From Bacteroidales bacterium (GTDB lineage Bacteria; Bacteroidota; Bacteroidia; Bacteroidales; PUMT01), in the NCBI GenBank assembly GCA_007132225.1, contig SLPB01000038.1, positions 1 to 40,152 of the forward strand: a stretch of DNA of 40,152 nt, given 5' to 3'. Both the position numbers and the translations under genes were made by a program. Below the pieces are notes generated by a model that saw nothing but the letters and a program-made list of their open reading frames with translations, was not told where the DNA came from and searched no databases. This document shows, piece by piece, positions 1,720 through 37,072 of this stretch (its first letter is position 1; each line of letters begins with the position of its first letter).

Positions 1720-4137
1720 CTATAATCTGACTGAAACCCCTATAAAAAAATGTCTTCCAGCTTGCGGAAAGAACCCATCCATTCGTTGTTCTTCTCCTTG
1801 ATTTATGTAACGATAAATCCACGCATTTGTTTCATATTTTGCATTAAAAATATTCCCAATCATTAAATTAAATCCCAACTGGCCGAACCACGGGCTTTCC
1901 ATTAAATAGTCAAATCGCAGATCACTGAAAAAATATTCATCAAGCATTCTTTCGCGACTTGAAGTATTGTCAATGAACTGCCGGTCAACATACTTACCCG
2001 ACAAGTTTATGTTAAAATTTCCCGCTGGATTCCATAAAATATTACCACCGGCAATTAACGGGGGAGAAAAAGAGAGTTCAGTATTGCCAAGATGACGTTC
2101 TACCTGTTGGGGTTCATTTTCAGGATCACTCCAGTAATCCCAGTTATCAACATATTCGGTAAAACCTTTAATCCTGTTTTCACTGAGTGTCATGTTAAAA
2201 GAAAATTCAAGCCGTGATGAAAGTCTCATTCCGGCCAGCAATTCTATCCCGGTACGATAACTTTCAGGGACATTTGTCATAATTGCAGCGCCAACATCAT
2301 TTATCTCACCGGTCAGAACAAGCTGATCACGGTAGTTCATATAAAACAGGTTGGCATTTAAATTGATGCTCTTTGCCCGGAGGTTATAGCCCGTTTCGAT
2401 GTTGCCAAGTCTTTCCGCTCCGGGAATCTCTCCCGGACGTGAATCCTTAAAATTACTCCTGCTGGGCTCCCGGTGGGCCACGGCATAGGAGAGATAAACA
2501 TTCTGTCTGTCATCAAATTCAAAATAAATACCTGCTTTGGGATTAAAGAAATGATAATCATGATCACGTGAAATATCGCGTAAATCATCATCTATGCCGC
2601 CTATTACATAGTTGATCGTGCGATACTGCAAATCACCATATAAATTTATATTGTCGACCAGCCTGTAATCCGCTTTACCAAAGATATTGAAATCCTTTTT
2701 ATCGCCTGCATTAAAATACCACTTGTAGTCTTTAGGGATATGATCGGCGTATCCTGCCCATATAATATGCCCGTAATGATCGCCTGTATAATTGTTCCAT
2801 GCTCCCCCAAGTGTAAAATCATATTTTTTCCTGCTGTATTTAAGAGAATACGTCATTCCGTAAAAATCGTTGTCCAGTATCTTTCTTCGTATCAGGTCGC
2901 TGCTTTCAATTATTTCACCTCCCAGCTCGAATCTTCCAAGACCATAATCAGCGAAGTCTTCATCTGCCTTATATTGCTCGTAAAAACCATACCCGCGTGT
3001 ATAATGAATAGCAGTATTCAGATGAAGGGCGGATGAAAATTCTTTTGAATAAAACATCTGGAAATGATCCTGCTGATAATTATCGGTTTCATTGTCATAG
3101 TATACCGTTTCGCCTGCATCATTGGTGTATCTCCCGGCAGGGTTGTATTGCCGCCGGTCAATATCAAGCATTGATGAAGGCACCCCATACCAGGCCTGAT
3201 AGGTTTTTTCCATGCCGGAAAATACATTCACCTTGAATATGCTCTTTTCATTATGCATTCCACCGGACACAAAAAAGGACTTCAGATCAGAGCTTGCCCT
3301 GTTGATATACCCGTCAGAGGTGACCTTTGAAAGACGTGCATCAAAAGTAAAGCGATCATTGATCATCCCGGAACCAAGCTTTAATGTGTTCCTCAGAGAA
3401 TTGAATGATCCCGCCGAGGTGGTTATTTCTCCATAGGGATTGGGGTTAAGGGTTGATGTCTGCAAATTCAGGCTGGCTCCGAAAGCCCCTGCTCCGTGAG
3501 AAGAGGTGCCAACTCCCCTCTGGATCTGGATATTCTCGACGGAAGAAGCCAGGTCAGGCATATTCACCCACCACACTCCGTGTGACTCGGAGTCATTAAG
3601 TGGGATACCATTGAGGGTTATGTTTATCCGGTTCATATCCGATCCTCTTATCCTGAAGCTGGAATAACCTATTCCTGTACCTGCATCCGAAGATGAAACA
3701 AATGAAGGAGTAAGATTAAGGATAAAAGGTATATCCTGGCCGAAATCACGCTTTTCAATCTCCTCCCGGCTAACATCAACATATGCCATTGGCACTTTTG
3801 AATGCGCACGGGTAGCAGAAACAATTACCTCTTCTGTCAAATATGAAAGTCTCTTTAAGGTGATCCGTATTCTGGTTTCATCATCAACGGTGATGTCTGT
3901 GAATTTTGTTTCATAACCCATATGCGAAACCCTCAGTGTATATTGACCCTCTTTTAAATTGATGTGAAACTCCCCCTCTGCATTTGTAGCAGTTCCAATA
4001 TAGGTTCCATCAACAACAACATTAACCCCGATAAGAGGTTCTCCTTTGGTATCTGTTACAGTACCATGAATAAAAGATCTTGCAAAAGTTGATAAACAAA
4101 ACAATTGCAATACAAGTAATCCTATTACGAGTTTCAT
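1720..4137 (-). CDS. TonB-dependent outer-membrane receptor, probable thiamin transporter
   Basis: Outer-membrane active transporter of 805 residues. In order: a signal peptide (about 1-19, ending near FARS), a carboxypeptidase-regulatory-like beta-sandwich (about 22-105, with GEPLIGVNVVVDGT and LRVSHMGYET), a plug domain (about 115-235, with the FRIRGSDMNRINITLNGIPLN motif and VENIQIQRGVGTS), then a beta-barrel whose last residues VSVRL suit assembly into the membrane. A TPP riboswitch and promoter lie directly upstream. Thiamin-regulated outer-membrane receptors are known from comparative genomics of Bacteroidota. The substrate is therefore inferred as thiamin or a precursor from the riboswitch, not from the barrel sequence. 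No SusD partner or inner-membrane thiamin permease is adjacent. The gene stands alone between two terminators. Confidence 0.9.
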   Translation of the reverse strand: MKLVIGLLVLQLFCLSTFARSFIHGTVTDTKGEPLIGVNVVVDGTYIGTATNAEGEFHINLKEGQYTLRVSHMGYETKFTDITVDDETRIRITLKRLSYLTEEVIVSATRAHSKVPMAYVDVSREEIEKRDFGQDIPFILNLTPSFVSSSDAGTGIGYSSFRIRGSDMNRINITLNGIPLNDSESHGVWWVNMPDLASSVENIQIQRGVGTSSHGAGAFGASLNLQTSTLNPNPYGEITTSAGSFNSLRNTLKLGSGMINDRFTFDARLSKVTSDGYINRASSDLKSFFVSGGMHNEKSIFKVNVFSGMEKTYQAWYGVPSSMLDIDRRQYNPAGRYTNDAGETVYYDNETDNYQQDHFQMFYSKEFSSALHLNTAIHYTRGYGFYEQYKADEDFADYGLGRFELGGEIIESSDLIRRKILDNDFYGMTYSLKYSRKKYDFTLGGAWNNYTGDHYGHIIWAGYADHIPKDYKWYFNAGDKKDFNIFGKADYRLVDNINLYGDLQYRTINYVIGGIDDDLRDISRDHDYHFFNPKAGIYFEFDDRQNVYLSYAVAHREPSRSNFKDSRPGEIPGAERLGNIETGYNLRAKSINLNANLFYMNYRDQLVLTGEINDVGAAIMTNVPESYRTGIELLAGMRLSSRLEFSFNMTLSENRIKGFTEYVDNWDYWSDPENEPQQVERHLGNTELSFSPPLIAGGNILWNPAGNFNINLSGKYVDRQFIDNTSSRERMLDEYFFSDLRFDYLMESPWFGQLGFNLMIGNIFNAKYETNAWIYRYINQGEEQRMDGFFPQAGRHFFIGVSVRL

Positions 4138-4180
4138 AATTTAAGATTTAAATTAAACTTATTATTGCAATGAGGTGTGT

Positions 4181-4268
4181 GATCTGGTTCTATTCCCTAC
4201 ACCGGCATTACCCGGATCAGGTTCAAAGGGTATGATCTCAGCCCGTTATATTAAGGCACCCCATTTTT
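4181..4268 (-). promoter_or_regulatory. TPP (THI-box) riboswitch
   Basis: On the minus strand the conserved blocks occur in order: GGGGTGCC (4262-4255), GGGCTGAGATCATACCC (4246-4230), GAACCTGATCCGGGTAATGCCGG and finally GTAGGGA, which ends at about 4194. These are the pyrimidine- and pyrophosphate-sensing arms of the thiamin pyrophosphate aptamer. The predicted transcription start (about 4270) falls right at the aptamer's 5' end. About 44 nt separate the aptamer from the receptor ATG and contain no T-tailed hairpin, so control of translation initiation is more likely than termination. Confidence 0.95.
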
Positions 4269-4275
4269 GACAGGA

Positions 4276-6517: not shown

Positions 6518-6919
6518 TCAATCAGCCCTGGTCATGGTTAATTTGCCATGCTGGATCCCTTTAACTGCAATTAATTTATTTGCAAGTTTAGTCAATACTG
6601 CAGCCTTACCTTTTACTGCCACGATTTCCAGGCAAATATCCTGATCCAGGTGAATATGTTGTGAGGATAAAACAACATCATGAAAGTCATGCTGCACATC
6701 TGTCAGGTTCTTGCTTAAATCCCTTTTATTATGATTGTAAACCAGTGTAATAGAGCCTGCAACAATGTTATTGCACTTCCATTTACTTTTTACAATATTG
6801 TCATTGATCAATTGCCTTAAAGCCCGGGACCGGTTTGAAAACTGATTATCCGACACATAGTCATCCAGTGCATCTAGTAGTTCTTTTTCCAATGATACGC
6901 CAAAACGTACAACAGACAT
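6518..6919 (-). CDS. nikR: Nickel-responsive transcriptional regulator NikR
   Basis: Ribbon-helix-helix repressor that binds DNA when loaded with nickel. Residues 1-45 form the RHH domain (VVRFGVSLEKELLDALDDY and SNRSRALRQLI). Residues 55-133 form the ACT-like tetramerisation domain. The four square-planar nickel ligands of E. coli NikR (His76, His87, His89, Cys95) are all present, shifted by one: H77, H88, H90 and C96 in QHIHLDQDIC. At 133 residues it is full length. There is no nickel transporter, urease or hydrogenase gene nearby, so its targets must lie elsewhere. I found no GTATGA-N16-TCATAC-like operator at its own promoter. Confidence 0.93.
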   Translation of the reverse strand: MSVVRFGVSLEKELLDALDDYVSDNQFSNRSRALRQLINDNIVKSKWKCNNIVAGSITLVYNHNKRDLSKNLTDVQHDFHDVVLSSQHIHLDQDICLEIVAVKGKAAVLTKLANKLIAVKGIQHGKLTMTRAD

Positions 6920-7106
6920 GGTGTTGGTTTTAAGTTAACAGCTTCACTTATGACGGGTAAAACTACTGTTTAATTTTTGGATTATCTTTTTAATTATAAG
7001 GGGCATTATATATAACTGGAATAAACCCAAAAATATATTTGATATGCCTTGCTGCATTATTGCCGGGTTGCAGGCACAACCAACCAGGCTAATAAAATAA
7101 AAAACA

Positions 7107-7143
7107 AAGCCGGAAGCTTTTCTGTACGAAAAATTTCCGGCTT
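7107..7143 (-). terminator. Intrinsic terminator of the candidate small RNA
   Basis: On the minus strand a 9-bp stem AAGCCGGAA/TTCCGGCTT (7143-7135 with 7115-7107) has a 19-nt loop and is followed by TGTTTTTTATTTTATT. The T-rich tail lies only on the minus-strand side, which fixes the direction. Confidence 0.75.
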
Positions 7144-7167
7144 ACTTTAACGGCAAGCCGTTAAAGT
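7144..7167. repeat. Perfect 11-bp inverted repeat
   Basis: ACTTTAACGGC and GCCGTTAAAGT are separated by AA. It abuts the terminator stem, so the RNA would end in two stacked hairpins. It could equally be a protein-binding palindrome. Confidence 0.7.
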
Positions 7168-7418
7168 ATCAAGCTACAGTTATTGTGACTGACCTCTTAT
7201 GACAAATCCCGGAGGATATGTTTAGAGAGTCCGGACCTTGTTCCTGTCAGCTTTTTATGGCTGATATTCACTCCGGTCCCCGTTCCTGTAATGCGGCCTC
7301 AGATTTCTCCCGGGGGATAGTCCTGTGCGGCCTGGCTTAAATCATTAATCCCGGGGGAGTTTTCTGATTTAAGTTTGACATCTCAAAGAACAAGCCTTTT
7401 ATCTCTCACTTGATGAAT

Positions 7419-7451
7419 CAAATATAGTATAAGAAACCAATATAAAGCAAA
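7419..7451 (-). promoter_or_regulatory. Bacteroidota-type promoter of the candidate small RNA
   Basis: On the minus strand TTTG at 7451-7448 and TATATTTG at 7426-7419 are separated by 21 nt. The -7 box is identical to those of the tRNA-Val and riboswitch promoters in this window. Confidence 0.65.
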
Positions 7452-7499
7452 CTTCCGCCTCTTTTGATATAAACAAGAAAGGAACACCGGTAATCAACA

Positions 7500-7579
7500 A
7501 ATTGTTAATACCCGGATATGCCTGTTTTTCAAAGATTTTAATATTATAAACAGGTTTTAAACCGGACTTATTAACAATT
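7500..7579. repeat. Nested 80-nt inverted repeat (imperfect long palindrome)
   Basis: Outer arms AATTGTTAATA (7500-7510) and TATTAACAATT (7569-7579) are a perfect 11-bp inverted repeat. Inside them CCGG (7512-7515) pairs with CCGG (7562-7565), and CCTGTTT (7521-7527) pairs with AAACAGG (7548-7554). All three pairs nest in one hairpin or cruciform with an AT-rich tip. No T run follows on either side, so it is not a classical terminator. It lies between the nuclease gene's stop and the small-RNA promoter. Confidence 0.7.
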
Positions 7580-7668
7580 CACTTTATTGCCATAACCCTT
7601 TCGCCTGTAACGGGATTTATGATTACATTCTGGAAAATGACATTTATATTAACATAAAAGTGCAGATT

Positions 7669-8760
7669 TCACCACCACAGGTCCAGTATCACCGGCAAAT
7701 GGTCACTGAATCCGCCGGTATGACGGAAACCTTCATAGGTCCTGAAAGGTTTGTAGCCAAACCAGATGTTATCGGTTGTCAGTAAAAAATCTGCGGAGAA
7801 TATCTTTGCAGACAGGGGACACGTTTTTAGTCCTCCCCGTCCATCCATTAAAGATCCCGAAACTATAAACTGATCAAAAAGAAACCACTCCCCCTGGAAT
7901 TTAAGGGTGCCCGACACCTTTCCCTTTTTACTGTGAGAAAGGTTGTAAAGCTTCCCCGGCACGGATTGATCATAATCAAACCTGGCCCCAAGGTAGAGCC
8001 TTAAACTTATATCTTCAGGCTCATCGTTAAAGTCTCCCATAATAATAATGGAGGCCCGTGGATTAATCCGGAACACCGAATCTGCAAGTGAACGAAGAAC
8101 AGATGCAGTATAATTCCGGTATGGCTCGGTGGCAGCCTGTCCGCCCCATCGTGAAGTCCAGTGGTTAACAAAAAAGTGCACTGTATCTTTAGCTCCTGCA
8201 ATACCTTTGACATATAGTATATCCCTGGTAGTGGCCAAACTGTCGAAAGGAAACCTTATGACCTTAAAGAGAGTGTCGAGAACAACAAAATCATCGCTCC
8301 TATATAAAACTGCTACATCAATACCCCTGCTGTCAGCAGAATTACGGTGAATAATCTCGAAGCCGGCACCTGCAAACCCGGTCTCATTTACCAGCTTTTC
8401 AAGTACATATTTGTTTTCAACTTCGCATAATCCTATTACAGAGGGGAGTCTCCATCCACCGGCAGCTGCCAGGGCCTTATACAAATTATTCAGCTTATTA
8501 TCCAGACGATATGAATTCCAGCGCCTCTCACCTGATGGCGTAAAAGCATCATCATTCCTGTCCGGCTCATTTACTGTGTCAAATAGATTTTCAACATTAT
8601 AAAAAACAATCCGGAAAACCCCGGAAGGCGACTTTAGTGACGGAAAACTGTTTTCACCGGCAAACAAAGCAGCAGAAGAAAAACAAAGGGTCAGGATAAT
8701 CATTACATAGATTAATTGATCCTTATTGTTTCCTTTTATCCAAACTTTAAAACTAATCAT
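7669..8760 (-). CDS. Secreted endonuclease/exonuclease/phosphatase-family protein
   Basis: Member of the EEP fold (DNase I, exonuclease III and phosphatase superfamily); probably a metal-dependent phosphodiesterase or nuclease outside the cytoplasm. Seen: an N-terminal hydrophobic signal (about 15-35), FYNVENLFD (53-61, Asn55), metal-binding Glu in LCEVEN (E113), SRGIDVAVLYR, GDFNDEPED, and the terminal SDH motif D353-H354 in FSDHLPV. All catalytic positions of the fold are present in 363 residues. A shorter start at Met20 would still keep a signal sequence. The gene follows the beta-helix lipoprotein gene by 15 nt on the same strand, so the two are likely cotranscribed. The substrate cannot be told from sequence. 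Confidence 0.85.
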   Translation of the reverse strand: MISFKVWIKGNNKDQLIYVMIILTLCFSSAALFAGENSFPSLKSPSGVFRIVFYNVENLFDTVNEPDRNDDAFTPSGERRWNSYRLDNKLNNLYKALAAAGGWRLPSVIGLCEVENKYVLEKLVNETGFAGAGFEIIHRNSADSRGIDVAVLYRSDDFVVLDTLFKVIRFPFDSLATTRDILYVKGIAGAKDTVHFFVNHWTSRWGGQAATEPYRNYTASVLRSLADSVFRINPRASIIIMGDFNDEPEDISLRLYLGARFDYDQSVPGKLYNLSHSKKGKVSGTLKFQGEWFLFDQFIVSGSLMDGRGGLKTCPLSAKIFSADFLLTTDNIWFGYKPFRTYEGFRHTGGFSDHLPVILDLWW

Positions 8761-36986: not shown

Positions 36987-37061
36987 GGGCGATTAGCTCA
37001 GCTGGTTCAGAGCACCTGCCTTACAAGCAGGGGGTCACTAGTTCGAATCTAGTATCGCCCA
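36987..37061 (+). tRNA. tRNA-Val (anticodon UAC)
   Basis: 75 nt. The acceptor stem GGGCGAT/ATCGCCC has discriminator A. The D arm GCTCAGCTGGTTCAGAGC, anticodon arm CCTGC-CTTACAA-GCAGG with TAC, and T arm CTAGTTCGAATCTAG all pair well. The 3'-CCA is not encoded. It stands alone with its own promoter and terminator. Confidence 0.96.
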
Positions 37062-37072
37062 CACTGATAACA

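Follow-up and report, generated by a model that had tools for sequence, protein, structure and literature searches.

Sponge RNAs such as CsrB and RsmZ act in trans, are sometimes present in several copies per genome and have a variable hairpin body, and the palindromic GacA site upstream of the rsmXYZ genes is found at almost no other genes. We know of no Hfq or CsrA in Bacteroidota, a phylum of which few noncoding RNAs are understood. Trans-acting small RNAs have been reported there, namely GibS (PMC7366714) and Rfp18 of Flavobacterium (PMC9723704), and the 6S RNAs of Bacteroides and Flavobacterium are reported as transcripts in these two papers. 6S-Flavo (RF01685) and Bacteroidales-1 (RF01693) are listed for Bacteroidetes/Bacteroidales in Table 1 of PMC2864571 (Weinberg 2010), where several Bacteroidetes motifs, Bacteroides-2 and GUCCY-hairpin among them, are without an Rfam number; these lie outside the Rfam comparison made here. 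OLE, ROOL and GOLLD are long, extensively covarying noncoding RNAs whose function is unsettled (PMC12286853).

The RNA described here is likewise noncoding with its own promoter, as are 6S, 6S-Flavo and Bacteroidales-1, but its family in the class Bacteroidia differs from them in outline, and none of their covariance models matches in its region. Rfp18 and other structured small RNAs of Flavobacterium, likened to it by description (PMC9723704), are also conserved, strongly folded, independent and from the same class. Length, extensive covariation and unsettled function are shared with OLE, ROOL and GOLLD, whereas the Bacteroidia RNA is shorter, has a hypervariable body, lacks an Rfam match in the scanned loci and is essentially restricted to Bacteroidia in our searches. 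CsrB and RsmZ, as commonly described, resemble it in the proposed action in trans, in multiple copies in some genomes, in the hairpin body and in a near-private upstream palindrome; their signature is GGA in a loop, whereas the enriched loops of the Bacteroidia RNA are UUCG and GNRA, and we know of no counterpart in CsrB/RsmZ-type RNAs to its conserved closing core and internal loop. The novelty lies at the level of the RNA class, as the RNA matched none of the known families tested, and a new mechanism is not claimed.

The window, a stretch of 40,152 nucleotides from a Bacteroidales genome (contig SLPB01000038.1), had been predicted to carry an unannotated structured RNA of about 320 nt on the minus strand, with its own promoter and terminator. 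Sequence, conservation and in-register promoters bear this out, and positions 7101-7414 almost certainly hold a real, autonomous noncoding RNA gene, with the following features.

7101-7414, minus strand: noncoding RNA gene, from the inferred 5' end to the terminator; full length in seven congeners, with a fold supported by 23 compensatory pairs
7448-7451, minus strand: -33 promoter element TTTG, read in the sequence; TTG in register in 107 of 112 members
7419-7426, minus strand: -7 promoter element TATATTTG, read in the sequence; TAnnTTT at -12 to -14 in 95 of 112 members
7394-7414, minus strand: 5' core ATCAAGTGAGAGATAAAAGGC (P1 strand 1, internal loop, P2), a motif recurring in many families
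7408-7413, minus strand: P1 closing stem, 5' strand, pairing with 7169-7174
7383-7391, minus strand: boxA-like GTTCTTTGA; the same 9-mer is in the 16S leader of congener G002
7365-7373, minus strand: conserved 9-bp stem, 5' strand (stem test in the congener alignment)
7336-7344, minus strand: conserved 9-bp stem, 3' strand (same test)
7166-7189, minus strand: 3' core GTCACAATAACTGTAGCTTGATAC, a motif recurring among family members
7169-7174, minus strand: P1 closing stem, 3' strand, pairing with 7408-7413 (consensus fold)
7144-7167, minus strand: 3' hairpin ACTTTAACGG...CCGTTAAAGT, helices 14-15 of the congener fold
7107-7143, minus strand: intrinsic terminator hairpin, from the sequence and helix 16 of the consensus fold; T-rich tail at 7094-7106
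7491-7511, no strand assigned: degenerate upstream palindrome GTATTAACA-N3-TGTTGATTA, centred near -87; intact forms in relatives
7568-7576, minus strand: further half-site TGTTAATAA, at -162
7669-8760, minus strand: Exo_endo_phos_3 nuclease gene (Pfam), the upstream neighbour, outside the RNA
6518-6919, minus strand: nikR-like gene (Pfam NikR_C)

Read directly on the minus strand, the promoter TTTG-N21-TATATTTG precedes ATCAAG, the first bases from 7414. Its exact -33/-7 motif is presumably that of the Bacteroides promoter. In 90 of 112 family members both elements precede the RNA in register, an arrangement seen at 25 of 2340 random positions, the members being related and the counts not independent; this set is the 117 rows used for the closing stem minus four chance rows and one locus without upstream sequence (L232). 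The window promoter also fits the -33/-7 outline described for Bacteroides in PMC7366714. A simple consensus scan, the consensus of which represents another promoter type, missed the window promoter, and the same scan returned an overlapping terminator-like site at 7138-7160 (one found, 0.8 expected) rather than the hairpin at 7107-7143. The predicted start near 7412 held as a start, though not to the exact base, since the family alignment places the probable 5' end at 7414. We infer that the gene is transcribed. Stop codons interrupt all three of its frames, and the minimum free energy of the RNA strand, -105.8 kcal/mol, compares with a shuffled mean of -78.8 (z -5.69; reached by 0 of 100 shuffles). 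Given that the opposite strand also folds well (z -4.67), folding alone does not assign the strand.

Alignment of 11 congener RNAs, one of them truncated (alignment A3), gave a consensus fold of 89 pairs with 97.6% of cells paired and compensatory changes in 23 pairs, counts that somewhat favour a structure predicted from the same alignment; none of 500 shuffles reached these values, and slid versions drop to 33-50% paired. The original prediction had also seen two competing stems and, in them, the pattern of a switch. The 9-bp stem 7336-7344/7365-7373 is upheld: it belongs to the consensus fold, 86.9% of its cells are paired, a percentage as high in 0 of 500 shuffles, and both sides have changed in five of its nine pairs. 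The long stem 7299-7318/7348-7367 is not conserved in the congener alignment (65.4% paired; 36 of 500 shuffles as high) and, by eye, seems to stem from two separate hairpins with CCCGGG-type loops in the window genome. Since this stem lacks conservation, a two-stem switch is not supported. The recurrence of ACAGGAAC and AGGCCGCA on the minus strand, remarked on at the same time, found a place in the structure and the family: AGGAAC pairs with the boxA stretch, and CCGCA recurs in the bodies of other lineages.

Matches to the window RNA were found in nine of its 12 congeners (60 genomes searched, its own included), seven as full units at 75-79% identity and two as fragments lying at contig ends (G004 and G011); G003, G005 and G009, with completeness of 74, 85 and 93%, gave none, and G022, from another family, has a match at the 5' core. 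Two copies are present in G002, 1.5 kb apart, and in G008, on different contigs. Pairs of RNA gene copies within about 0.7-2 kb were also observed in L211, L218, L225, L246, L174 and L188.

The nuclease gene lies upstream of the RNA, on the same strand, in nine further congener loci (directly in seven, beyond a 738-aa ORF in two), and a nucleotidyltransferase gene lies downstream in six. Between RNA and nucleotidyltransferase, none of the 12 congener loci fetched has an equivalent of the window's nikR-like gene, apparently a local insertion or one lost elsewhere. The proposal that the RNA is a regulatory leader or riboswitch of nikR was rejected, given its own terminator before nikR, the missing nikR in the congener loci and the different neighbours in other families. 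Because the neighbourhood varies with lineage, action in trans is suggested, and because no gene common to all neighbourhoods was found, no partner protein is indicated. A gene of the SRAP (HMCES/YedK) type was considered as a common partner: it lies near the RNA in two arrangements in 15 loci (L028, L195, L214, L147, L156 and others), L028 and L171 being the same contig and the Pfam test covering the protein of L028 only, and other groups have different genes there, none of them universal.

Allowing up to one mismatch, the 5' core pattern was found in 31 of 395 genomes of the class Bacteroidia; the reversed control matched about 20, so that about half of the matches at this setting are chance. 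A 3' core follows at 200-540 nt in 15 of the 30 loci fetched, the window's own among the 15, the place in L040 carries a variant 3' core, and most of the remaining loci look like gene-internal chance matches. R1, a covariance model of the 3' module built from 21 sequences, matched 84 of the 395 genomes at E up to 0.05, with 27 reaching 1e-6, among them 13 sources of training rows. With E limited to 0.001, R1 picked out 77 of 295 genomes in the window's order, and at 1e-7 or better 56 genomes from 29 families, four of these genomes being sources of training rows. Weak R1 matches are often plain terminators, and they were counted as members only for L094-type loci, the 5' ends of which were read by eye. 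These loci (L094, L097, L102, L106, L088 and L087) represent a second subtype, with a 5' end near ATCAAGAACGACGTACTTTGACA and a 3' end near AAACTTGATGC, placed in the family by outline and not by core motifs. The R1 search of 247 genomes of the phylum confirmed no member outside the class: five of these genomes lay outside it, and the matches read in three were gene ends with terminators and without cores, G699 and G833 being the remainder.

Scanning the genome collection with the 5' core returned at least 119 stretches which, among the matches listed, are mostly titled Bacteroidota and include Algoriphagus, Cyclobacterium, Aquiflexum, Marivirga, Roseivirga and many Bacteroidales assemblies. 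Matches in Marininema, a Rhodobacteraceae record and Hallella have no convincing 3' core and look like chance. One locus titled Chlorobiota (L148, JAADHC010000034.1) carries both cores; either its title is wrong or the family extends beyond Bacteroidia. A loose pattern found the 3' core in 77 of 83 5'-pattern matches; inspection by eye marks L181, L207 and L209 as chance, L187 is truncated, and the six without a 3' core comprise five cut by the locus end and the chance match L154. A mobile element or phage was dismissed as the carrier, with 0 matches of the 5' core in viral contigs and the window RNA unmatched in plasmids. A structured RNA family across the class Bacteroidia is well supported.

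Members share the 5' core AYCAAGTRAGNGATAAARGRC and the 3' core AATAACNGTAGCTTG, and a covarying stem between the two closes the molecule. This stem, P1, joins the 5' end and the 3' core over 6-7 bp. In the 117 rows compared, L049, L057, L181 and L207 are chance and L083 has an incorrect 3' end. The outer pair of P1 is standard in 113 of these rows, against a shuffled mean of 96.3 and with 0 of 2000 shuffles as high, and in 111 it takes the form C-G, T-A or T-G. By eye, divergent members keep P1 with other bases: CAGG/CCTG in L080, CAAAC/GTTTG in L077 and L090, and CTAAG/CTTAG in L085 and L093. An internal loop, GAGNGAUAAA against AAUAACNGUA, is conserved between P1 and P2. The support for P2 (GRC/GYC) is weaker, with standard pairs in 98-102 of the 117 rows, values reached by 0.6-4% of 2000 shuffles. 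At the other end, all 14 pairs of the 3' hairpin before the terminator covary in 20 Cyclobacteriaceae-type RNAs (14 rows so titled among the scan matches listed and six placed by sequence), and 41 of the 64 pairs of this set show compensatory changes, a result that none of 500 shuffles reached. Measured from the 5' end to the end of the 3' core, members span 146-554 nt among the pattern matches and up to 621 nt in L075.

The boxA-like element was discarded as a family-wide feature, its strict form occurring in only 18 of 112 members and in few lineages. The 16S leader of congener G002 carries the GTTCTTTGA 9-mer identically. BoxA-like stretches were found in three among six 16S loci (one in G002, two in G099), neither G384 locus contains one, and the 16S start was unlocated in one of the six.

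The body between the constant ends is lineage-specific and full of hairpins capped by UUCG or GNRA loops: in 104 non-redundant bodies, CTTCGG occurs 97 times (8.2 expected) and CGAAAG 85 times (22.5 expected). No single short binding motif common to all bodies was found and, since the enriched loops are generic stable tetraloops, an architectural fold fits them equally. Each of the 20 short Cyclobacteriaceae-type RNAs has one bulged GNRA hairpin unit, CUGARACGG-GNAA-CCGCAGAAGU, near body position 87, with changed stem bases in some of them. RNAs of 500 nt (L192, L159, L068, L252 and L258) carry the unit three times each; a fourth, diverged copy, its stem rewritten as GAG/CTC, is present in L192 and L159, and the repeats of these two show longer flanking similarity around the unit. 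With one unit in short and three to four in long RNAs, length follows unit number in this lineage. Repeated units were seen in Cyclobacteriaceae-type members only and were not found in the window's genus.

None of the 4227 families of Rfam 15 matches the window RNA above its cut-off, the models for 6S (RF00013), Bacteroidales-1 and riboswitches included, in agreement with the earlier statement that no tmRNA, RNase P or SRP landmark could be found in it. The region 6930-7680 gave seven weak matches (E 0.42-8.4), five of them overlapping the RNA, which lie far below the cut-offs and were judged to be chance. The suggested identity as a divergent 6S or Bacteroidales-1 RNA fails here, as neither is among these seven at E up to 10 or was found at the RNA in 20 genomes. 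Rfam 15 likewise gave nothing at the RNA in 48 further loci, some of which are tentative and four of which (L091, L101, L103 and L104) show no core; L093 matches AaHKsRNA41 (E 0.0046) some 120 bases past the RNA's terminator. At the genome level, RF00013 had no match over threshold in 20 genomes and a single weaker one, at E 0.08, at another place in G000, its control matching in 5 of 14 and not in Bacteroides; 6S-Flavo (RF01685) matched in 0 of 21 genomes and its control nowhere; and Bacteroidales-1 (RF01693), the control of which matched in Bacteroides ihuae, gave sub-threshold matches in five of 20 genomes, none at the RNA. These comparisons were made with covariance models. Full-length sub-threshold RF01693 matches far from the RNA, at G384:C1:6442608, G186:C6:607588, G324:C43:65943 and G029:C197:5361, are perhaps divergent homologues. 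A literature search found no description of the family, with thin coverage of subscription papers and preprints, so that an earlier description is possible; five Bacteroidota terms are absent from the main text of a 26-genome discovery paper (PMC8632094).

Half-sites sit upstream of the RNA at recurrent positions: of 115 members, 55 have TGTTAATAA (2.0 expected), 22 have TGTTGATAA (0.9 expected) and 15 have TGTGGATAA (0.9 expected). Some half-site lies within 400 bases in 62 of the 83 pattern matches, and 21 have none; a dyad, TTATTAACA-N2/3-TGTTAATAA or near variants, occurs at -85 in 19 of the 83, and a half-site at -104 in 13. Among 25 genomes selected as carriers of the RNA, all three exact copies of the palindrome, four of six with one mismatch and six of 37 with two lie within 1 kb of the RNA, and the 46 sites compare with 19 for the reversed pattern. 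The palindrome stands beside the RNA in 13 of these genomes and not in the other 12, with none anywhere in six. The sites of some Bacteroidales members form a near-private dyad, suggesting a dedicated regulator, on which the palindrome offers a direct handle. DnaA is a possible alternative: we take TGTGGATAA of Cyclobacteriaceae to be the classical DnaA box, and DnaA-box-like 9-mers number 58 in 43 regions upstream of the RNA, or 2.90 per kb against 0.22 elsewhere. A replication origin at the RNA was rejected in G289: the RNA lies at 2.69 Mb, and the cumulative GC skew, sampled at 20 points, is lowest near 0.75 Mb and highest near 3.1 Mb, though the skew is weak and follows an almost level course around the RNA. 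GC skew in the window shows local sign changes and no lasting switch at the RNA.

Considering the constant ends and the multiplying units of the body, we favour a role as a scaffold or decoy. The conserved internal loop would dock or protect the RNA, the hairpin array would bind several copies of an RNA-binding protein, for which the RNA would serve as scaffold or decoy, and a dedicated regulator would set its amount. To the explanation as a whole, an autonomous, trans-acting Bacteroidia RNA with constant ends and a hairpin-array body used in this way, we assign a probability of roughly 0.4; the scaffold or decoy function for an RNA-binding protein, read from sequence, is about as tentative. 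A Bacteroidia-wide multivalent particle, made of RNA only or with a dedicated protein, with invariant docking ends, gain and loss of hairpin modules and a private regulator, seems rather doubtful. An ornate architectural RNA, the GNRA/UUCG body of which would form a compact tertiary or homo-oligomeric particle like OLE, GOLLD or ROOL, with protein secondary, would account for the extensive covarying secondary structure in both lineages analysed, for the strongly enriched GNRA and UUCG loops and for the non-canonical internal loop conserved between P1 and P2; we consider it unlikely, given that, unlike a single conserved cage, the body differs radically in sequence and length from family to family, with 146-554 nt separating the ends. 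Just as unlikely, in our estimate, is a base-pairing regulatory RNA with lineage-specific antisense segments against mRNAs in its body: the body does change fast, and GibS and Rfp18 of Flavobacterium are precedents in Bacteroidota (papers cited above), but 97.6% of cells preserve the predicted pairing and, by eye, neither alignment A3 nor A4 contains a conserved single-stranded seed beyond the core loop.

The scaffold or decoy reading is set still further apart from three other explanations. It is improbable that the RNA is a divergent 6S, sequestering RNA polymerase by imitating an open promoter: its own promoter, a closed hairpin-like outline and short members of similar length would suit it, and the absence of 6S matches over threshold in 20 genomes says little, as the model misses the Bacteroides control too, but P1 has merely 6-7 bp, the ends are sometimes more than 550 nt apart, the region yields no 6S, 6S-Flavo or Bacteroidales-1 match up to an E of 10, five of 20 RNA-carrying genomes have Bacteroidales-1 matches below threshold at other loci, and Bacteroides and Flavobacterium have their own reported 6S transcripts. 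Slightly less probable again is a link to ribosome synthesis or transcription, in which the boxA-like element would recruit NusB/S10 and the RNA would compete with pre-rRNA for assembly factors; the GTTCTTTGA common to the window RNA and the 16S leader of a congener speaks for it, against which stand the rarity of strict boxA among the members, the pairing of the boxA stretch in the consensus fold and the fact that antitermination of a long untranslated transcript accounts for boxA equally. That the RNA is a 3' untranslated region or read-through of the nuclease transcript, with no independent gene, is very improbable: in the window and in most congener loci the RNA does stand behind the nuclease gene, on the same strand, yet the promoter is in register in 90 of 112 members, other families have different neighbours, the second copies of G002 and G008 are found at other places, and promoter, RNA and terminator move as one unit through different neighbourhoods.

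The presence of the RNA in 77 of 295 genomes of the order, with constant ends and a modular body, points to a shared process, and named genera with cultured strains among the matches listed (Algoriphagus, Cyclobacterium, Marivirga and Roseivirga) should make deletion, RNA-seq and pull-down feasible. Elsewhere in the window, a TPP riboswitch above the Rfam cut-off (4177-4273, minus strand) lies directly ahead of an 805-aa ORF (1720-4137, minus strand) that by eye looks like a TonB-dependent receptor, and a tRNA-Val (TAC) is located at 36987-37062 on the plus strand.
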